DNA of 64,000 nt from Mucispirillum schaedleri ASF457 (GTDB lineage: Bacteria > Chrysiogenota > Deferribacteres > Deferribacterales > Mucispirillaceae), in the NCBI RefSeq assembly GCF_000487995.2, contig NZ_CP097562.1, positions 124,001-188,000 on the forward strand, given 5' to 3'. A model generated the notes under the pieces. That model was given only the letters and a program-made list of their open reading frames with translations. It made no database searches and was not told where the DNA came from. This document shows, piece after piece, positions 13,767-62,254 of the stretch. The position numbers and the translations under genes are program-made. Numbering within the stretch: position 1 is the stretch's first letter; each line of letters starts with the position of its first letter.

Positions 13767-14201
13767 ATGAAAATTTTATATACTGATGAAATGAACTGCT
13801 GTTTAAGCTATGAATTTTTTACTCTTGTTGCTGAATCTGTATTTAATGAGCTTGATATGAGCAGTAATGAATATGAAATATCATTACTTATAACTGATGA
13901 TGAAACAATAAGAAAGTATAATAAAGAATATAGAAATAAAGACAGAGCAACAGATGTGTTATCTTTTCCTATGGAAGATGATATTATTCTTGGAGATGTT
14001 GCTATATCTTTTGAAACTGCAAAAAGGCAGTCAGAAGAAGCAGAAATAAATATAGACAGGGAAGTGGCATTTCTTTTTATACATGGCTTACTGCATCTTT
14101 TAGGATATGACCATGAAACAAGTCAGGAAGATGAAGAAGAAATGTTTGCATTACAGGAAAAAATATTAAAAAAACTTGTTGACTATGGCACGGTTTCATA
14201 G
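13767..14201 (+). CDS. ybeY: Endoribonuclease YbeY (16S rRNA 3'-end maturation)
   Basis: The 144-residue protein carries the UPF0054 zinc motif HGLLHLLGYDHE, with His106, His110 and His116 as ligands, and the upstream RATDVLSFP motif. YbeY processes the 16S rRNA 3' end and takes part in 70S ribosome quality control. It is directly downstream of phoH, the most common neighbour in bacteria. Confidence 0.96.
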   Translation: MKILYTDEMNCCLSYEFFTLVAESVFNELDMSSNEYEISLLITDDETIRKYNKEYRNKDRATDVLSFPMEDDIILGDVAISFETAKRQSEEAEINIDREVAFLFIHGLLHLLGYDHETSQEDEEEMFALQEKILKKLVDYGTVS

Positions 14202-42512: not shown

Positions 42513-43855
42513 GAAAATATTTTGGAACAGATGGTGTTAGAGGCAGGGCTAATATTGAGCCATTAACTGCTGATTTCGCATTAAAACTGGGCAGAGCAGC
42601 TGCTGGTTTATTTAAAAATAATGATACTCACAGGAAAATTATTATAGGTAAAGATACACGGCTGTCCTGTTATATGTTTGAGAATGCATTGGTATCAGGT
42701 ATTTGTTCTGCAGGTATTGATGCTGTCATGGTTGGTGTCATTCCAACACCTGCTATTGCATTTTTAACAAAATCAATTAGAGCAGATGCTGGTGTAGTAA
42801 TTAGTGCATCACATAATCCGTATTATGATAATGGTATTAAGTTTTTTAATGCTAATGGTTATAAACTTGCAGATATTACAGAGCATGAAATTGAAAGGAT
42901 GATAGATAATAATGAACCTGCATTAGACCCATATTCAATAGGTAAAGCATACAGAATAGAAGGTATAGGCAGATATGTGGAATTTGTAAAAAATACATTT
43001 CCTAAAAATATTGATTTAAAAGGGCTTAAAATTGTTGTTGATTGTGCAAATGGTGCATCATATAAAGCAGCACCACTTGCTTTAAGGGAGCTTGGTGCAG
43101 AGCTTATTTTAACTAATGTTGAACCAAATGGCACAAATATTAATGATAACTGTGGTGCTGTATATCCTGAAAATATGGCAAAAGCTGTTTTAGAGCATGG
43201 AGCAGATGTAGGTATATCTTTTGACGGCGATGCAGACAGGGTAGTTTTTTCAGACGAAAAAGGCAATATAGTTGACGGTGATAAAATTATGGGTATTTGT
43301 GCTATTGATATGATGGAGCAGGGCACATTAAAAAATAATACTATTGTTGCAACTGTTATGAGCAACCTTGGCTTTGAATACTCTATGAATAAAAAAGGCA
43401 TTAAACTTATCCGCTCGCAAGTTGGGGACAGGTATGTTATGGAAGATATGCTGAAATATAACTGTAATCTTGGTGGGGAGCAGTCAGGTCATTTAATATT
43501 TTCAGATTTTAATACTACTGGTGATGGCTTAATAAGTGCTATGCAGGTGCTTGGTTTACTTATAAAAAAAGGCAAATCTTTATCAGAGCTTTGCAGTTTT
43601 ATAGAAACATACCCACAGGTATTAAATAATGTTTTAGTTGATAAAAAAGTTTCACTTGATGAATTAAGTAATACTTCAGCATTAATCTTAAAAATAGAAA
43701 AAGAGCTTGGAACTTCTGGCAGACTGCTTGTAAGGTATTCTGGAACAGAAAATAAATTAAGAATTATGCTTGAAGGTAAAGATGAAAAAATAATTACTGC
43801 CTATGCAGAAGAAATTGCAGAGATGGCAGTAAATGAAATACAAGGTAAAAAGTAA
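42509..43855 (+). CDS. glmM: Phosphoglucosamine mutase
   Basis: GlmM converts GlcN-6-P to GlcN-1-P for UDP-GlcNAc, the precursor of peptidoglycan and LPS. The 448 residues contain [11 protein letters not shown], the active-site Ser101 in [16 protein letters not shown], the metal loop DGDADRV and [12 protein letters not shown]. It overlaps cdaR by 4 bases and pdxJ by 1. Confidence 0.98.
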
Positions 43856-44568
43856 TGATAAAACTTGGAGTAAATATTGACCATGTGGCTACTCTGCGGC
43901 AGGCAAGAATGAATATAGAGCCTGAGCCTGTTACAGCTGCCAGAATTGCAGAAAAAGCAGGTGCTGATGGTATTACAATACATTTAAGAGAAGATAGAAG
44001 GCATATACAGGATAAGGATGTATATGATATTAAAAAAGCTGTTTCTATTCCATTAAATTTAGAAATGGCATGCAGTGATGATATTATTAATATTGCAATA
44101 GATGTGCATCCAAATACATGTACAATAGTTCCAGAAAAGCGTCAGGAAATAACAACAGAAGGTGGGCTTGATGCTGCTGGCCAGTATCATTTAGTTGCAG
44201 ACACTGTTGCTAAGCTGCAGGAAAAGGGGATAAAAGTAAGTCTTTTTATAGAGCCAGATAAAATGCAGATTGAAGCTGCAAAGAAAATAGGTGCAGAATA
44301 TATTGAAATCCATACAGGGTTATATGCAAATACTGAAAGTGAAGCACAAAAGCGGGAATTAAACCGTATAAAAGAAGCTGCTGTTTATGCTCATAGTCTT
44401 GGTTTGATTGTTAATGCAGGTCATGGGTTAAATTATACTAATACACAAAGTATAGCGGCAGTTCCTTATATGCATGAATTTAATATAGGACATTCAATAA
44501 TTTCAAGAGCTGTTTTTACAGGTCTTGAAGAAGCAGTTAAAGAAATGATAAAAATAGTTAAAAAGTAG
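43855..44568 (+). CDS. pdxJ: Pyridoxine 5'-phosphate synthase
   Basis: PdxJ closes the pyridoxine ring from 1-deoxyxylulose-5-P and 3-amino-2-oxopropyl phosphate. The 237 residues begin [14 protein letters not shown] and carry [11 protein letters not shown] and [10 protein letters not shown], all characteristic. It lies between glmM and acpS, a widely conserved order. Confidence 0.97.
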
Positions 44569-44570
44569 TT

Positions 44571-44921
44571 ATGCTTGGTTGTGATATTATAGAAATAGAA
44601 AGAATAGAAAAATCTATTTTAAAATTTGGGGATAATTTTTTAAAACATATACTTTCAGATAATGAGATAGTATTATATAATAAACGGGGTAAAAAGGCTG
44701 AGTTTGCAGCAGGCAGATTTGCGGCAAAAGAAGCTGTTTCAAAAGCATTAGGCACAGGTATAGGCATAGACTACAGATTTACAGATATAGAGATACTGCC
44801 AAATGAACATGGCAAACCTTATGTTTATTTAAAAAGTCAAAAAAAAGAAAATATTGAAATATCTATATCACATTCCCGTATGAATGCTGTTGCGGTATGT
44901 ATTATTAAAGAGGCAGAATGA
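44571..44921 (+). CDS. acpS: Holo-[acyl-carrier-protein] synthase
   Basis: AcpS transfers 4'-phosphopantetheine to ACP. The 116 residues show GCDIIEIERIEK (metal Asp) and FAAGRFAAKEAVSKALGTG, plus ISHS near the end. It overlaps kdsB by 4 bases. Confidence 0.96.
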   Translation: MLGCDIIEIERIEKSILKFGDNFLKHILSDNEIVLYNKRGKKAEFAAGRFAAKEAVSKALGTGIGIDYRFTDIEILPNEHGKPYVYLKSQKKENIEISISHSRMNAVAVCIIKEAE

Positions 44922-45649
44922 GTGCAGTAATAATTCCAGCCAGATATGGCTCAACAAGATTTCCAGGTAAAGTTCTTGCAGATATTGATGGTAAGCCAAT
45001 GATTGTAAGGGTGGCAGAGCAGGCAGTGCAGACTTCTGCTGATAAAGTAATTGTTGTTACAGATAATGAAAAAGTATATGAAGTATGCTCTAATATAAAA
45101 AAAGTTTCTGTTATGATGAGCCCTTCAGATTTATCTACAGGAACAGACAGAGTAGCGTATGCTGCAAAAAATATTGATGATGATATTATTATTAATGTGC
45201 AGGGAGATGAGCCTTTTATTCCTCCAGTATTAATTGAGCAGTTAATACAAGGGTTAAAAAATGATAAGTCTCTTAAAATGATAACAGCATGTGTGCCTTT
45301 TGCAGATATTAATAATTCTGAAAATCCATCAGCAGTAAAAGTTATTCTTGATAAAAATGATTATGCTGTTTATTTTTCAAGATATCCTGTTCCATATAAC
45401 AGAGATAATATTGAGGGTGTGGTTAGATACCGTCATATAGGTATTTATGGTTTCAGGCATGATTATTTATTTGAATTTGCTTCACAGGAACGGACTTACT
45501 TAGAAAAATGCGAAAATTTAGAGCAGCTTAGAGCTTTAGAAAATGGTGTTAAAATAAAAGTAGTAAAAACAGATTACAACCCGTTATCTGTTGATACTCT
45601 TGAAGATTTGCAAAATATTTTAAAAATTTTAAGTATGAGGAATAAATAA
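44918..45649 (+). CDS. kdsB: CMP-Kdo synthetase
   Basis: KdsB activates Kdo with CTP for the LPS inner core. The 243 residues show PARYGSTRFPGKVL, NVQGDEPFI and YRHIGIYGFR. It overlaps the ATG of pyrG by one base, so the CTP supplier is translated directly after the CTP user. Confidence 0.95.
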   Translation: MSAVIIPARYGSTRFPGKVLADIDGKPMIVRVAEQAVQTSADKVIVVTDNEKVYEVCSNIKKVSVMMSPSDLSTGTDRVAYAAKNIDDDIIINVQGDEPFIPPVLIEQLIQGLKNDKSLKMITACVPFADINNSENPSAVKVILDKNDYAVYFSRYPVPYNRDNIEGVVRYRHIGIYGFRHDYLFEFASQERTYLEKCENLEQLRALENGVKIKVVKTDYNPLSVDTLEDLQNILKILSMRNK

Positions 45650-47274
45650 TGGCAAAGTATATTTTTGTAACCGGTGGTGTATTATCATCATTAGGTAAGG
45701 GGATTACAGCAGCTTCCCTTGGGGCTCTACTTGAATCAAGAGGGTATAAAGTTGCTTTAAGAAAGTTTGACCCATATTTAAACTATGGTCCTGGCACAAT
45801 GAGCCCTTTGCAGCATGGTGAAATATTTGTTACAGCAGATGGCTGTGAAGGTGATTTAGATTTAGGTCATTACGAAAGATTTACCAAAACAAATACTGAC
45901 AAACATTCAGACATTACATCTGGTAAAATATACTATACTGTTATTGAAAGAGAACGCAAAGGTGAATATCTTGGTGCAACGGTGCAGGTTATTCCTCATA
46001 TAACTGATGAAATAAAAGGCTGTATAACAGCTGGTGCAGAAGATTATGATATAGTAATTGTAGAAATTGGAGGCACAGTTGGAGATATTGAAAGTCTGCC
46101 ATTTTTAGAAACAATCAGGCAGATGAAATTTGATTTAAAAGAAAATGATGTATTATTTTTACATGTTACTCTGGTGCCTTATATTAAAAGTGCAGGAGAG
46201 CTTAAAACAAAACCAACTCAACATTCAGTGCGTCAGTTACATGAGATAGGTATCAGCCCTGATATTTTAGTGTGCAGAAGTGAATATCCACTTAGCGAAG
46301 GCGTTAGAAACAAACTTGCATTATTCTGTAATGTGGGAAAATCATCAGTGATTAACTGTATGGATGCTGCTACAATTTATCAAGTTCCACTTGTATTAAA
46401 TGAAGAAGGTTTAGACAGTGAAGTTATAAAAAAACTGGGACTTGAAGAAAGGGAATATGATTTATCAAAATGGCAGGATATTGTAAAGCGCATAAAACAG
46501 CCAAAAGATACAGTTTCTGTTGCAGTTGTTGGTAAATATCTTGAAACAAAAGATGCGTATTTAAGCCTAACAGAAGCATTGCTTCATGGAGCAGTTGCAA
46601 ACTATTTAAAAGTAGATATAAAATGGATAGATGCTGAAAAACTGGAAGAAAAAATGGCTAGTGAGTATTTAAGCAGTGTTGATTGTATATTAATTCCTGC
46701 AGGCTTTGGTGAGCGTGGGATGGAAGGCAAAATAAATGCTGTAAATTTTGCTAGAACAAAAGATATTCCATTTTTAGGTATATCTATGGGTTTGCAGGCA
46801 GCAGTAATTGAATATGCAAGAAATGTATTAAAATTAGAAGATGCAAGAAGTGCTGAGATGACAAAACCAGAACATTCCCAAAATCTTGTTATTGATTATA
46901 AGCATGATGAACATTATAATGAAGAAATGGGTGCATCTATGCGTCTTGGCTCTTATGTAACTTCTTTAATGGAAGGCAGCCTTGTAAAAGAAATTTATAA
47001 TACTGATACTGTAACAGAAAGACACAGACACAGGCTTGAAATAAATAATAAATATAGAAATGCATTAGAAAGTGCTGGTATGGTAATATCTGGAAATAAT
47101 GAAGAAAGTGGCTTTGCAGATATTATTGAGTTAAGTTCTCATAGGTGGTTTATAGCTACTCAATTCTGCCCAGAATTTCAGTCAAAACCATTTAATCCAC
47201 ATCCGCTTTATAATGCTTTTATTCAGGCTGCTTATAAATATAAACAGGATAAAAATAACTTATCCGGTGATTAA
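45649..47274 (+). CDS. pyrG: CTP synthase with an inactivated glutaminase domain
   Basis: CTP synthase aminates UTP. The 541 residues cover the full family length. The synthetase half keeps GGVLSSLGKGITAASLG, the DLDLGHYERF region, EIGGTVGDIES and KTKPTQHSVRQL; one family Asp in NVDPGTMSP is Gly here (NYGPGTMSP). The glutaminase half is fully present but its catalytic residues are changed: the nucleophile Cys of GICLGMQ is Ser379 (GISMGLQ), the catalytic His of QFHPE is Cys507 (QFCPE), and the first Gly of PGGFG is Ala351 (PAGFG). Loss of Cys379 in E. coli CTP synthase abolishes glutamine use but not ammonia use, so this enzyme should be ammonia-dependent. The frame is intact and it lies between kdsB and kdsD, so it is expected to be functional. 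Confidence 0.95.
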   Translation: MAKYIFVTGGVLSSLGKGITAASLGALLESRGYKVALRKFDPYLNYGPGTMSPLQHGEIFVTADGCEGDLDLGHYERFTKTNTDKHSDITSGKIYYTVIERERKGEYLGATVQVIPHITDEIKGCITAGAEDYDIVIVEIGGTVGDIESLPFLETIRQMKFDLKENDVLFLHVTLVPYIKSAGELKTKPTQHSVRQLHEIGISPDILVCRSEYPLSEGVRNKLALFCNVGKSSVINCMDAATIYQVPLVLNEEGLDSEVIKKLGLEEREYDLSKWQDIVKRIKQPKDTVSVAVVGKYLETKDAYLSLTEALLHGAVANYLKVDIKWIDAEKLEEKMASEYLSSVDCILIPAGFGERGMEGKINAVNFARTKDIPFLGISMGLQAAVIEYARNVLKLEDARSAEMTKPEHSQNLVIDYKHDEHYNEEMGASMRLGSYVTSLMEGSLVKEIYNTDTVTERHRHRLEINNKYRNALESAGMVISGNNEESGFADIIELSSHRWFIATQFCPEFQSKPFNPHPLYNAFIQAAYKYKQDKNNLSGD

Positions 47275-47285
47275 TAGGGTGTGTT

Positions 47286-48257
47286 ATGGATAACAAAGAT
47301 ATAATTAATTTTGGAATAAATACTTTTCAAATAGAAATAGAAGCTATGAAAAAAGCTATGAACAGCTTATCAGAAAGTTTCGCTCAGGCTGTTAATATAA
47401 TTTTAGGCTGTAAAGGCAGAGTTGTGGTTATTGGAATGGGAAAATCAGGTATTATTGGTAAAAAAATAGCTGCAACATTAGCAAGCACAGGAACACCTGC
47501 TTTTTTTATGCATCCAGCAGAGGGTATGCATGGTGATTTAGGTATGCTTGTAAAAGGTGATGTGGTAATAGGTATCTCTAACAGTGGGGAAACTGACGAA
47601 ATGAAAGTGCTTTTGCCATTAATTAAAAGACTTGGTTCAAAATTAATTTCAATAGTTGGTAAGGCTGATTCTACATTAGGCAGAGAAAGCGACTGTATTC
47701 TTGATGCATCAGTTGGAAAAGAAGCATGTCCTTTAAACCTTGCACCCACTGCAAGTACGACTGTAGCTTTAGCAATAGGTGATGCTTTAGCTGTTGCTCT
47801 TGTTGAATGTCGTGGATTTAAAGCAGAAGATTTTGCAATGTTTCACCCATCAGGCTCACTTGGTAAAAGACTGCTTACTACAGTAGGTGACTTAATGCAC
47901 ACATGTGATGCTGTGCCTGTTGTAAATGAAAATGATACTGTAGAAAATGCTGTCAAAGAAATAAATGAGAAAAAATTTGGCTGCACTGCTGTTGTAGATA
48001 ATAATAATAAACTTACAGGTATTATAACTGATGGTGATTTAAGACGGGCTATATCTAAATATTCATCAGTTCATCAGTTAAAAGTTCCTGAAATTATGAC
48101 ACGCAGTCCTAAAATGATTGTAAAATATGAGCTTGCTGCAAAAGCTCTTCATATTATGGAAGAATATAAAATATCTTCATTATTTATTATTGATAAAGAG
48201 CAGCATCCTGAGGGTATAATTCATTTTCAGGATTTATTAAAGTTTGGATTAGTATAA
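47286..48257 (+). CDS. kdsD: D-arabinose 5-phosphate isomerase (KdsD/KpsF family)
   Basis: The enzyme makes arabinose-5-P, the Kdo precursor. The 323 residues have a SIS domain (GMGKSGIIGKKIAATLASTG, HGDLGML, ISNSGET) and a CBS pair in the C-terminal 120 residues. kdsA and kdsC, which often sit next to it, are not in this window. It lies 11 bases after pyrG and 3 before lptC. Confidence 0.94.
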   Translation: MDNKDIINFGINTFQIEIEAMKKAMNSLSESFAQAVNIILGCKGRVVVIGMGKSGIIGKKIAATLASTGTPAFFMHPAEGMHGDLGMLVKGDVVIGISNSGETDEMKVLLPLIKRLGSKLISIVGKADSTLGRESDCILDASVGKEACPLNLAPTASTTVALAIGDALAVALVECRGFKAEDFAMFHPSGSLGKRLLTTVGDLMHTCDAVPVVNENDTVENAVKEINEKKFGCTAVVDNNNKLTGIITDGDLRRAISKYSSVHQLKVPEIMTRSPKMIVKYELAAKALHIMEEYKISSLFIIDKEQHPEGIIHFQDLLKFGLV

Positions 48258-57373: not shown

Positions 57374-58159
57374 ATGAAAAAAGTGATTATTTTACTTATT
57401 GTTATTGCAGTATTGGCAATAGGATTTTTTGCTGGATATAGATATTTATATAAAAAAGCTGATAGTGTTTTTAAACTTTCTGGCGAAATACAGATGACAC
57501 AGGTTGATGTTGCTTTTAAAGTATCTGGCACTATTTCTCACCGATATTTTTCAGAAGGTATGTCTGTTAAAAAAGACCAGCTTCTTGCAGAATTAAATAA
57601 TGAAACATATTTAACACAGCAAAAAATGGCACAAGCTAATGAAGAAGCAGCTAAATGGGGATTAGAAGAATTAAAAGCCACTTTAAAAAAATCAGGCACA
57701 ACTAATAATAATTTATTAGAGAAAACTCAGGCTCAGTTAGATGCTGCTTCTGCAAACAGAGAGTTGGCTAATTATCAGTTATCATATACTAAACTTAATT
57801 CACCATTAGATGGTATAATTTTAGCTGCTTATAAAGAAGAAGGGGAAGTTATTGCAGCAGGAGCACCTGTATTTTCTATTGGAGATCCAAATAAACTGTG
57901 GCTTAGAACATATCTTCCTGAAACAAAAACTGACACTGTTAAATTAGGTCAAAAAATGATAATAAAAATTGACAGTATGCCAAATGAAAAATTTGAAGGC
58001 AAAGTTGTTTTCATTTCTGATAAAGCAGAGTTTACTCCAAAACAGATTTATACTACAGAAGAAAGAGTAAAACTTGTTTATAAAGTTAAAATAGAAATTG
58101 CAGATACAAAAGGTATCTTAAAACCAGGTATTCCAGCAGATGCATTTTTAGAGGAATAA
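57374..58159 (+). CDS. HlyD-family membrane fusion protein (YbhG-like)
   Basis: The 261 residues have one N-terminal membrane helix (about 3-22), the biotinyl-lipoyl-like segment QVDVAFKVSGTISHRYFSEG, a short helical hairpin (about 75-130) and a beta-barrel region (SPLDGIILAAYKEEGEVIAAG, VFSIGDPNKLWLRTYLPE). It links the inner-membrane ABC transporter to the periplasm. No outer-membrane channel gene is nearby. The operon order matches E. coli ybhGFSR. Confidence 0.9.
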   Translation: MKKVIILLIVIAVLAIGFFAGYRYLYKKADSVFKLSGEIQMTQVDVAFKVSGTISHRYFSEGMSVKKDQLLAELNNETYLTQQKMAQANEEAAKWGLEELKATLKKSGTTNNNLLEKTQAQLDAASANRELANYQLSYTKLNSPLDGIILAAYKEEGEVIAAGAPVFSIGDPNKLWLRTYLPETKTDTVKLGQKMIIKIDSMPNEKFEGKVVFISDKAEFTPKQIYTTEERVKLVYKVKIEIADTKGILKPGIPADAFLEE

Positions 58160-58163
58160 TCTA

Positions 58164-59084
58164 ATGCCTAAATCAGAATTGATTATTTCTGAAAACTTAT
58201 CAAAATCTTTTGGAGATAACCATGCGTTAGTAGATTTTTCTCTATCAGTTAAGCAGGGAGAAATTTCTGGTATTGTAGGTCCTGATGGTGCAGGCAAAAC
58301 TACAGCTATGCGTATATTATCTACTGTCTCACTTCCTGACAGTGGCACATTATTCATTAATGGTGTAAATGCCTTAACTGATTACCGCGGAGCAAGAAAA
58401 AGTATTGGTTATATGAGCCAGAAATTTGGTTTGTATATTGATATGAGTGTAGAAGAAAATATTAATTTCTTTGCAGATTTGCAGGGTGTTCCTAAATCGG
58501 AAATAGATGATAGAAAAAAAATGCTTTTAACAGCAAGTGGAATGTATCAGTTTCGTTCAAGGCTTGCAGGCAGGCTTTCAGGTGGTATGAAACAGAAGCT
58601 TGCATTGTGCTGTGCCTTAATCCATGAACCAAAAGTATTAATTTTAGATGAGCCTACAAATGGTGTAGACCCTGTATCTCGCAGAGAATTCTGGCAGATA
58701 TTAAACAGGTTTGCTTCAGACGGCACAGCTATTGTATATGCTACAAGTTATCTTGACGAGGCAGAAAGATGCAATACTATTAACTTAATGAATAAAGGAT
58801 GTGTTATTGCAGGCGGTCATTTAGAATATCTTCAGTCACTTCCTGAAATTGATGTTATAGAAATAAAAGGGGAAACAGTCCGCAACATAATAGATATGAT
58901 ACCTGCAAAATATGGTCAAATATGGTCTTTTGGCTCAGCTTTACATATACATGCTCCAAAGGGCAGAAATTATGCAGAAAGTCTTAAAACATTATTAAAT
59001 AACAATTATGAAATATCAGTAATATATCCTTCGTTAGAAGACATTTTTACATACCTTACATATAAAGGTGATATAAATGGATAA
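58164..59084 (+). CDS. ABC transporter ATPase, YbhF N-terminal-half-like
   Basis: The 306 residues have Walker A GPDGAGKTT, signature LSGGMKQKLAL and Walker B LILDEPTNGVDP. The H-loop His is replaced: ATSYLDEAE has Ser195 where the His should be. The first half of E. coli YbhF has the same loss (ATAYMEEAE), so this is the degenerate-site partner of an asymmetric ATPase pair. It overlaps the second ATPase gene by 8 bases. Confidence 0.9.
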   Translation: MPKSELIISENLSKSFGDNHALVDFSLSVKQGEISGIVGPDGAGKTTAMRILSTVSLPDSGTLFINGVNALTDYRGARKSIGYMSQKFGLYIDMSVEENINFFADLQGVPKSEIDDRKKMLLTASGMYQFRSRLAGRLSGGMKQKLALCCALIHEPKVLILDEPTNGVDPVSRREFWQILNRFASDGTAIVYATSYLDEAERCNTINLMNKGCVIAGGHLEYLQSLPEIDVIEIKGETVRNIIDMIPAKYGQIWSFGSALHIHAPKGRNYAESLKTLLNNNYEISVIYPSLEDIFTYLTYKGDING

Positions 59085-60000
59085 TATTGCTGTTTCTGTT
59101 AAAAATCTAACAAAAAAATTTGGTGATTTTACTGCTGTATCAGATGTTACTTTTGATGTGAATAAAGGTGAAATTTTTGGTTTTTTAGGTGCAAATGGTG
59201 CAGGTAAGTCTACTACTATTAGAATGTTATGCGGTATTTTACCGCCCACATCAGGCACAGGCATTATTGCAGGATATGATGTTTTAAAAAATCCCGGAAT
59301 GGTCAGGCAGAATATTGGCTATATGAGTCAAAAATTTTCTTTATATGGTGAGCTTACAGTTTATGAAAATATGAAATTTTTTGCAAAATTATATTCTGTT
59401 GCAGGTAAAAATATAAATGATGCAGTAAATGAAGCTGTTGAGCAGGTAAAATTAAATGGCTATGAGCATGTGAAAACTAAAAGTCTTTCATCTGGTATAA
59501 AGCAAAGGCTTTCTTTAGCATGTGCTATTATTCATAAACCACAGATTATTTTTCTGGATGAACCTACATCAGGTGTTGACCCTGTATCAAGACGCAATTT
59601 TTGGGATTTAATTTATAATTTTGCATCAATTGGTGTTACAATATTTGTAACAACTCACTATATGGATGAAGCCGAATATTGTGATAGAATAGCAATGATT
59701 AGTTCTGGAACATTAAAAGAAATAGGCACACCAGAAGAGCTTAAAACAACTAAAATGATATGGAATGTTTATAAAATTAAAGGGTTTGGGTTATATGATG
59801 TAGCTCAAGCTATACTAAGAATGGAAAATGTTTTTGATGTTGGGCTGCTTTCTGATTCTATTCGTATTTTATCATCTAATTTAACACCTGATGATATAAT
59901 GAAATATTTAGATAAAAATGGCTATAAAGGCTATATTGTTGAACAGGCAGAAGCTGTATTAGAAGATGTGTTTGTTAGCTTTGCAAGAGGTCAAAACTAA
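59077..60000 (+). CDS. ABC transporter ATPase, YbhF C-terminal-half-like
   Basis: The 307 residues have Walker A GANGAGKST, signature LSSGIKQRLSL, Walker B FLDEPTSGVDP and an intact H-loop His194 (VTTHYMDEAE). It pairs with the preceding ATPase. In E. coli the two are fused in YbhF; here they are separate genes with an 8-base overlap. Confidence 0.9.
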   Translation: MDNIAVSVKNLTKKFGDFTAVSDVTFDVNKGEIFGFLGANGAGKSTTIRMLCGILPPTSGTGIIAGYDVLKNPGMVRQNIGYMSQKFSLYGELTVYENMKFFAKLYSVAGKNINDAVNEAVEQVKLNGYEHVKTKSLSSGIKQRLSLACAIIHKPQIIFLDEPTSGVDPVSRRNFWDLIYNFASIGVTIFVTTHYMDEAEYCDRIAMISSGTLKEIGTPEELKTTKMIWNVYKIKGFGLYDVAQAILRMENVFDVGLLSDSIRILSSNLTPDDIMKYLDKNGYKGYIVEQAEAVLEDVFVSFARGQN

Positions 60001-61130
60001 TGAGTATAAGAAGAATAAAAGCTATCAGCTATAAAGAATTTATTCATCTGTTCCGTGATATTAGAAGTCTTATGGTTATAATCCTTGTGCCTGTCATACT
60101 TCTTATACTTTTTGGATATGCGTTAAAGCTTGATGTGGAAAATGTAAGTATAGGTGTTCTTGATTTTTCTAACAGTGAAAAAAGCAGAGAATATACTGCA
60201 AATTTTAATGCAACCAGTGCATTTAATGTGAACTATCATTTATCTACTTACAAAGAAGCAGAATATCTGCTTGATACAAATAAAATCAAAATGATACTTG
60301 TAATTAAAAGTGATTTTGAAAAAGAGCTGAATACAAATTATAATACAAAAGTTCAGGTAATTATTGATGGCAGTGATATTACAACAGCGTCATCCATTAT
60401 GAATTATGTGGCAGGTATTACTGCTCAGTATAATAAGTCATTTATAGAATATATTTTAAGAAATAATCAGATAAATGTTTCTTTTGGAAAAGTTATTCCT
60501 GAGATTAGATACTGGTTTAATGAAGATATGAGAAGTGTAAACTATCTTTTTCCTGGTCTAGTTGCTATTATTATGTCAGTTGTTGCTGGTTTTTTAACAT
60601 CTTTAACTATTTCTCGTGAATGGGAAACAGGCACAATGGAGCAGCTTATCCCTACACCTGTTACAGAAGGGGAAGTAATAACAGGGAAACTTTTAACTTA
60701 TTTTTTAATAGGCTTAATAGATGTTATTATATATATATTTATGGGAGAGTTTCTTTTCCATGTTCCTTTAATGGGAAATACATTATTAGTATTTTTATTT
60801 GCAACAATATTTTTAATGTGTATGCTTTCTTTTGGTATTTTTGTAAGTATTGTTATGAAAAGCCAGTTAGCATCAAGTCAGGTAACAACAACAACAACAA
60901 TGCTTCCAGCATTTTTACTTTCAGGATTTGTTTTTGATATTAATAATATGCCTGTAGTTATTCAATGGATAACATATCTTTTCCCAGCAAGATATTTTGT
61001 AGATATTTTAAGGGGACTTTATTTAAAAGGTGTTGGAATAGAATATTTATATGTTAATGCAGGCTTTTTAATATTTTATTCTGTCATACTGCTTGTGCTG
61101 TGCAGACTGTTATTTAAATTGAGAGCATAA
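60000..61130 (+). CDS. ABC-2 type permease (YbhS-like)
   Basis: The 376 residues have one N-terminal helix (LMVIILVPVILLILFGYALKL), a large extracytoplasmic domain (about 45-180) and five C-terminal helices, with WETGTMEQLIPTPVTEGEVI and the LFPARYFVDILRGLYLKG motif of YhhJ/YbhS/YbhR permeases. It starts on the last base of the ATPase gene. Substrates are probably cationic or amphiphilic compounds, by analogy. Confidence 0.9.
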   Translation: MSIRRIKAISYKEFIHLFRDIRSLMVIILVPVILLILFGYALKLDVENVSIGVLDFSNSEKSREYTANFNATSAFNVNYHLSTYKEAEYLLDTNKIKMILVIKSDFEKELNTNYNTKVQVIIDGSDITTASSIMNYVAGITAQYNKSFIEYILRNNQINVSFGKVIPEIRYWFNEDMRSVNYLFPGLVAIIMSVVAGFLTSLTISREWETGTMEQLIPTPVTEGEVITGKLLTYFLIGLIDVIIYIFMGEFLFHVPLMGNTLLVFLFATIFLMCMLSFGIFVSIVMKSQLASSQVTTTTTMLPAFLLSGFVFDINNMPVVIQWITYLFPARYFVDILRGLYLKGVGIEYLYVNAGFLIFYSVILLVLCRLLFKLRA

Positions 61131-61132
61131 TT

Positions 61133-62254
61133 ATGAAAAATATAATGAACCGATTAATAGCGATGCTTTATAAAGAGTTTATTTACCTTATTCGCGATAA
61201 AAAAATGCGTATAATAATTATTGCTGTGCCAATAATACAGGCTGTTTTACTTGGTTATGCAGTTAATATGGATTTGAAGGAAGTAAAAACAGCAGTTGTT
61301 AATATGGATAATTCTATAGAAAGTAATGAATTTATTGATTCTTTTTTTTCAAGCAATATATTTACACCAGTTTCAGCTGCTAATATGCATCAGGCAGAAG
61401 AACTTGTGCTTGGTGGCAAAGCATTAATGATAATAGTTATTCCAAAAGGATTTTCTGTGCAGCTTAAAAATGACAAAACAGCACCTGTGCAGGTGATTTT
61501 AGATGCTACCAACTCTGTTAATGCAGGTATGGCTTCAGGATATATTGTGAACCTTATTACAAAATATAATACAGAATATATTGAAAGTAAAACTGGTTAT
61601 AAAAACAGTATGGGAGTAGATGTAGAGTATAGAACATGGTTTAATAATAATTTTGAAAGTAAAAATTTCTTTGTGCCATCTATGCTTGCTATGCTTTTAA
61701 TTATTGTTACAGTAATGCTTTCAGGTATGGCTATAGTGCAGGAAAAGGAATCTGGCACATTAGAGCAGCTTACAGTAAGCCCTATAACTGCATGGGAGTT
61801 TATTATAGGTAAAAGTATACCATTTGCTATAGTGAGTTTTATTGATGTATTATTAATCATTGCTATTTCTGTATTTTGGTTTGGTATAAAAGTAACAGGC
61901 AGTTTTTCACTGCTGCTTTTTGCATCAGTTTTATATATAATGTGTACATTAGGTATTGGTCTTTTAATTTCTGCAATCAGTGCTACTCAGCAGCAGGCAA
62001 CAATGAGTATGTTTATGATAATATTCCCAGTAATACTTCTTTCTGGCTTTGCATTTCCAATAGTAAATATGCCAGAAGTAATACAGTGGGTAACATATAT
62101 TAACCCAATGCGGTATTATCTTGATATAATTGTAGGTGTATTTTTAAAAGGTCTTTATTTTGACAGGCTTCAAGACCCTGTATTTGCATTATTTATATTA
62201 AGTGTGTTATATATTGGTCTTGCAGCTTTATATTTAAGAAAAAAATTAAATTAG
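61133..62254 (+). CDS. ABC-2 type permease (YbhR-like)
   Basis: The 373 residues are a paralogue of the preceding permease with the same layout: first helix VPIIQAVLLGYAVNMDL, external domain, QEKESGTLEQLTVSPITAWE and YINPMRYYLDIIVGVFLKG. The two form the heterodimeric transmembrane part of the exporter. Confidence 0.9.
   Translation: MKNIMNRLIAMLYKEFIYLIRDKKMRIIIIAVPIIQAVLLGYAVNMDLKEVKTAVVNMDNSIESNEFIDSFFSSNIFTPVSAANMHQAEELVLGGKALMIIVIPKGFSVQLKNDKTAPVQVILDATNSVNAGMASGYIVNLITKYNTEYIESKTGYKNSMGVDVEYRTWFNNNFESKNFFVPSMLAMLLIIVTVMLSGMAIVQEKESGTLEQLTVSPITAWEFIIGKSIPFAIVSFIDVLLIIAISVFWFGIKVTGSFSLLLFASVLYIMCTLGIGLLISAISATQQQATMSMFMIIFPVILLSGFAFPIVNMPEVIQWVTYINPMRYYLDIIVGVFLKGLYFDRLQDPVFALFILSVLYIGLAALYLRKKLN

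Follow-up and report, generated by a model that had tools for sequence, protein, structure and literature searches.

A CTP synthase without its glutaminase nucleophile in Mucispirillum schaedleri: a candidate ammonia-dependent isozyme beside a glutamine-dependent paralogue

Introduction

The locus described here raises the question of what a CTP synthase does, and why it is kept, once the residues with which it should hydrolyze glutamine have been replaced. The gene, designated pyrG-A, lies in a 64,000-nucleotide window of the Mucispirillum schaedleri ASF457 chromosome (NZ_CP097562.1, positions 124,001 to 188,000). A first-pass annotation of this window, made from the letters alone, noted that the glutaminase site of the encoded protein is mutated and proposed that the organism makes CTP from free ammonia. 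We have compared PyrG-A with CTP synthases of the same genome, of other Deferribacterota, and of 68 intact relatives of a second enzyme, PyrG-B, through which the comparison reached other phyla.

Results

Glutaminase and synthetase sites of PyrG-A

PyrG-A has the two-domain architecture of a CTP synthase, with Pfam matches to PF06418 (CTP_synth_N, 409 bits) and PF00117 (GATase, 112 bits), and it scores 763.8 bits against the NCBIfam PyrG model (cut-off 462.75) and 799 bits against NF003792. The three glutaminase replacements reported at first pass in an otherwise full-length reading frame are correct: the codons GCA, TCT and TGC and the alignment to E. coli PyrG agree on G351A, C379S and H515C (Cys507 in PyrG-A). 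The glutamate of the Cys-His-Glu triad (E. coli E517) is still present, whereas the nucleophile motif GxCxGxQ reads GISMGLQ, in which the Leu380 and Met382 positions are altered too. With triad and oxyanion-hole residues gone, glutamine hydrolysis has very probably been lost, as had been proposed. The match to TIGR00337, whose name is 'glutamine hydrolyzing CTP synthase', lies far over the cut-off; since the nucleophile is absent, this name should not apply despite the score, and automatic annotation thus hides the loss.

The P-loop, phosphoryl-transfer and UTP-binding residues considered are all identical to those of E. coli, including K18, K40, D72, E140 and G143 of the phosphoryl-transfer and catalytic set as well as D42, Q114, T144, D147, E149 and K187-K189 of the UTP set (roles assigned in PMC8325340), in agreement with the earlier statement that the synthetase half keeps its motifs. 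In addition, residues of the GTP cleft and tunnel (K297, Y298, F353, R356, R468, R470, P54 and H57) are largely retained. The AlphaFold model has a mean pLDDT of 86 with a confident GATase domain, and it gives a TM score of 0.94 against E. coli CTPS (8i9o).

Table 1. Features of the pyrG-A locus (positions in the window; residue numbers in E. coli PyrG in brackets)
Feature	Position	Strand	Basis or remark
pdxJ and acpS, upstream in conserved block	43855..44921	+	ORF, neighbourhood comparison
kdsB, CMP-Kdo synthetase (CTP consumer)	44918..45649	+	one-base overlap with pyrG-A start
pyrG-A, CTP synthase with predicted dead glutaminase site, 541 aa	45649..47274	+	ORF, NCBIfam, Pfam, predicted fold
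Synthetase (amidoligase) domain, residues 3-265	45655..46443	+	ATP, UTP and phosphoryl-transfer residues all kept
Gly47 replacing Asp (D48), loop into ammonia tunnel	45787..45789	+	conservation comparison with intact set
Gly68 replacing Thr (T69), Gly in every Cys-less copy	45850..45852	+	alignment
Glutamine amidotransferase domain, residues 301-526	46549..47226	+	active site eroded, predicted fold intact
GCA, Ala351 replacing oxyanion-hole Gly (G351)	46699..46701	+	codon read, alignment
TCT, Ser379 replacing catalytic Cys (C379)	46783..46785	+	codon read, alignment to E. coli PyrG
TGC, Cys507 replacing catalytic His (H515)	47167..47169	+	codon read, alignment
kdsD/kpsF, arabinose-5-phosphate isomerase	47286..48257	+	ORF, neighbourhood comparison

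The placement of an intact pyrG in a Kdo/LPS operon was borne out by its kdsB and kdsD neighbours. PyrG-A copies sit at a pdxJ-acpS-kdsB-pyrG-kdsD locus that is common to relatives in the order with intact pyrG; this is the ancestral pyrG locus, which PyrG-A has kept. No glutaminase gene was found in the pyrG-A operon. Elsewhere in the window, a tandem membrane-fusion protein, two ATPases and two ABC-2 permeases (57374-62254) resemble a multidrug-type exporter operon.

A second CTP synthase in the genome

The ASF457 genome (a single contig of 2.35 Mb) was searched for a second pyrG, and a full-length one was found on the same chromosome (C1:1694689-1696251, minus strand). Its product, PyrG-B, is 48% identical to PyrG-A and has an intact triad (GICLGMQ, PGGYG and QFHPE). 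The claim that the organism makes its CTP from free ammonia therefore does not hold as it stood, the first-pass annotation having itself named a second intact pyrG as contrary evidence. Its prediction of resistance to DON at the CTP synthase step is weakened, since PyrG-B would be expected to respond to DON in the ordinary way. CarA, GuaA and HisH, the further class I amidotransferases detected in this genome, have retained their Cys, which argues that the cell is not ammonia-only; a genome-wide loss of glutaminases or a general switch to ammonia was rejected on this ground.

The pyrG-B gene adjoins glmS and is divergent from guaA. In the corresponding locus (L032:7318-12469), glmS and pyrG-B form an apparent operon, and the products of all three genes are glutamine-dependent enzymes. 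An IS3-like two-ORF transposase lies nearby (L032:14189-15579), and a short repeat beside it (about 13832-13930) recurs at many contig ends in the assemblies G003 and G004.

PyrG-B is 61-63% identical to PyrG of termite-gut Elusimicrobiota and groups with these proteins in the PyrG tree (support 100/100), apart from the native copies of Deferribacterota. PyrG-B and the Elusimicrobiota enzymes are CTP synthases like PyrG-A, but differ from it in their intact triad and in not belonging to the Deferribacterota line of descent. This grouping points to horizontal transfer with another phylum, in a direction that the tree does not set.

Fifteen genomes of the family of Mucispirillum (f1) were compared; 14 of them yielded the native Cys-less PyrG-A, and 13 the intact PyrG-B. 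Neither was seen in G005, a genome that is 57% complete. The absence of PyrG-B from G004, a Mucispirillum genome, is not taken as a true loss: the contig (C40) ends 73 bases past the guaA match and glmS is absent too, indicating an assembly gap. Both enzymes occur together in every f1 genome in which both regions are assembled.

Distribution and origin of the cysteine loss

An alignment of PyrG from Deferribacterota had been suggested at first pass to see whether Ser379 and Cys507 are conserved across a clade. Within Mucispirillum they are, since all nine PyrG-A copies have S379, C515 and A351 (E. coli numbering), and this concordance also disposes of the suggestion that the three sites might be sequencing errors. 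Beyond the genus, the residues at these sites vary. One related genus (g3) has Ser379 with His383, another (g2) has Gly379 with Cys or Ser at 383, and Gln383 is gone in both; two genomes of a sister family (f4), G017 and G032, have Ser379 beside a one-residue insertion, together with Leu515. In total, the catalytic Cys is missing in 16/16 native copies from the two sister families (14 genomes of f1 and two of f4), whereas the native PyrG of 31 other Deferribacterota genomes keeps Cys379 and His515 (Cys/His/Glu) without exception.

The Cys-less copies form one clade inside the native Deferribacterota sequences of the PyrG tree (100/97), and a tree of AspRS and FtsH places the two families as sisters (97/99). 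A tree of the synthetase domain only, with odd columns removed, does not group them. A single loss of the cysteine before the two families split is thus likely but not certain: independent losses are disfavoured by the full-length PyrG tree and the species tree, although the synthetase-only tree leaves room for convergence. Since the cysteine has also been lost in f4, in copies without PyrG-B at their side, the loss is probably older than the arrival of PyrG-B.

Selective constraint on the two enzymes

Pairwise dN/dS within Mucispirillum is 0.060 for PyrG-A and 0.065 for PyrG-B, at dS near 0.9. By domain, the values are 0.037 (synthetase) and 0.076 (GATase) for PyrG-A, and 0.046 and 0.082 for PyrG-B, so constraint on the apparently dead glutaminase domain is no weaker than on its live counterpart, in keeping with the first-pass view that it has been retained. 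Over longer times, the ratio of GATase to synthetase divergence is somewhat raised in f1 (1.6-1.75) compared to intact relatives (1.43) and is not raised in f4 (1.40). The reading that PyrG-A is a redundant gene decaying after a takeover by PyrG-B, or a sequencing error, has in its favour the second intact copy, but is almost negligible given this low dN/dS, the absence of stops, the same operon and residues in nine genomes of the genus and the loss of the cysteine in f4, which lacks PyrG-B, selection on the operon transcript alone being the remaining loophole.

Positions conserved in at least 95% of 115 intact sequences were taken as invariant. PyrG-A departs from these at 8-9 of 52 positions in the GATase domain and at one of 91 in the synthetase domain, while intact native copies depart at none or one. 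The single synthetase change, which had escaped the first pass, concerns Asp48: present in 115/115 intact sequences, it is Gly in Mucispirillum and g3, Ala in g2, and Ser or Asn in f4. The loop that carries it leads to the GTP contact and the tunnel (M52, P54 and H57). From this pattern we infer that Asp48 serves the coupling of glutamine use rather than amination and that the constraint on it was released in the clade with the dead site, which would make the Cys-less enzymes a natural experiment on coupling residues.

The sister family

No second PyrG was found in G017 (95% complete) or G032 (87%) with E values up to 10, the Cys-less copy being the only one detected. From these completeness values, the chance of having missed a second copy in both is about 0.7% if gaps are independent, a rough figure for fragmented assemblies. 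CTP synthesis in these organisms may thus be obligately ammonia-driven. A further-reaching scenario, which is conceivable but which we hold only tentatively, is that this part of f4 has no CTP synthase besides the Cys-less enzyme and depends on free ammonia for its entire de novo CTP synthesis, and that Mucispirillum descends from such an ancestor and regained glutamine use by importing PyrG-B. The f4 tree is also compatible with a past coexistence of both copies.

Three other f4 genomes (G024, G030 and G031) have a different, intact PyrG that is 48-50% identical to PyrG-A and, in G024, lies near murI and lgt; the native kdsB-linked PyrG was not found in these three. The loci in question (L137 in G024, L138 in G031 and L139 in G030) look like the outcome of another replacement of this enzyme, independent of the first.

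Discussion

Function of PyrG-A

Considering that the glutaminase site has been lost, that the synthetase half is preserved and that the protein is under purifying selection, PyrG-A is best read as an NH3-dependent enzyme. We regard it as rather probable that PyrG-A is an NH3-dependent CTP synthase isozyme at the ancestral locus and that PyrG-B covers glutamine-dependent synthesis; two isozymes dividing labour in this way is the simplest reading of the comparative data. On this view, PyrG-A is the vertically inherited CTP synthase of Deferribacterota, which would have lost its nucleophile, and glutamine hydrolysis with it, in the common ancestor of the two families. Its synthetase half would still phosphorylate UTP with ATP, and free NH3 entering via the GTP cleft and tunnel would aminate the product. 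In f1, the Elusimicrobiota-related PyrG-B would have been acquired next to glmS, most likely from another phylum, both enzymes now being maintained. The enzyme would be catalytic with ammonia as sole nitrogen donor and important at high ammonium.

Chemistry known from E. coli suggests that such an enzyme should be NH3-dependent: CTPS G352P forms no CTP from glutamine and is almost fully active with NH4Cl (PMC9138612), and the DON-modified enzyme still uses NH4+ via a solvent opening by F353 (PMC11211670). M. schaedleri itself reduces nitrate to ammonium in culture and has glutamate dehydrogenase and glutamine synthetase (PMC5285517). Several points count against this reading. GATase-dead E. 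coli CTPS needs high NH4+ in vitro, and the loss of the strictly conserved Asp48 could impair synthesis by PyrG-A. With PyrG-B present, the cell would not need PyrG-A activity, and the selection data are also compatible with a role other than catalysis. In addition, GTP inhibits NH3 use by CTPS (PMC9138612), and ammonium alone gave M. schaedleri no gain in growth (PMC5285517).

The main rival, which we consider unlikely yet worth serious attention, is that PyrG-A is a pseudoenzyme that makes no CTP, binding nucleotides and either regulating PyrG-B, perhaps in mixed tetramers or filaments, or sensing CTP for the Kdo/LPS operon. Selection as strong on both domains as in PyrG-B, replacement of Cys by Ser or Gly plus loss of Asp48 in every Cys-less copy, and the constant company of an intact paralogue in adequately assembled f1 genomes speak for it. 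A mere scaffold, however, would not require that all ATP, UTP and phosphoryl-transfer residues be kept in Cys-less copies, and in G017 and G032, where no second PyrG was found, the Cys-less copy should be catalytic.

It is very unlikely that PyrG-A is fed ammonia by a glutaminase acting as a separate partner, or that its nitrogen comes from some other donor; the largely kept cleft and tunnel would be compatible with partner feeding, but the operon lacks a glutaminase gene and the docking place would be taken by the predicted GATase fold. A residual or re-invented glutaminase with Ser379 or Cys507 as nucleophile is extremely unlikely. The formal Ser-His-Glu set of g3 and the Cys at the His position in Mucispirillum could be read in its favour, but the Mucispirillum enzyme lacks a base at 515, position 379 is Gly in g2, the f4 copies combine Leu515 with an inserted residue next to the nucleophile, and neither g2 nor g3 retains Gln383. 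Human CPS1, in which Cys has likewise been exchanged for Ser, is unable to use glutamine (PMC4655335).

Comparison with known systems

As an ammonia-dependent isozyme, PyrG-A would couple the supply of nucleotides to ammonium in a genus that is common in gut mucus, and the probably imported PyrG-B illustrates how an acquired gene can supply a lost half-reaction. The literature searched contained no report of a natural CTP synthase that lacks a working glutaminase throughout a clade. Compared to bacterial PyrG (EC 6.3.4.2; TIGR00337/NF003792; PDB 8i9o, 1s1m and 9kao), PyrG-A is alike in its full two-domain length, complete synthetase site and fold, but differs in lacking the catalytic Cys and His, in its altered oxyanion Gly and in the loss of Asp48, so that glutamine hydrolysis is not expected. 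The G352P and DON-modified E. coli enzymes resemble the proposed state of PyrG-A in having lost glutamine use while retaining NH4+ use, although they are engineered or inhibited forms rather than a natural lineage. The established parallel is human CPS1. In this class I amidotransferase, Ser294 stands in place of the catalytic Cys, the dead domain has been retained, and the enzyme draws its ammonia from outside (PMC4655335). PyrG-A likewise combines a replaced Cys and an intact synthetase with a retained glutaminase domain that is under selection, whereas CPS1 catalyzes another reaction with another synthetase fold and has a measured ammonia activity where that of PyrG-A is inferred. If the ammonia-dependent reading is true, PyrG-A represents a CPS1-type switch of nitrogen donor in another essential enzyme.
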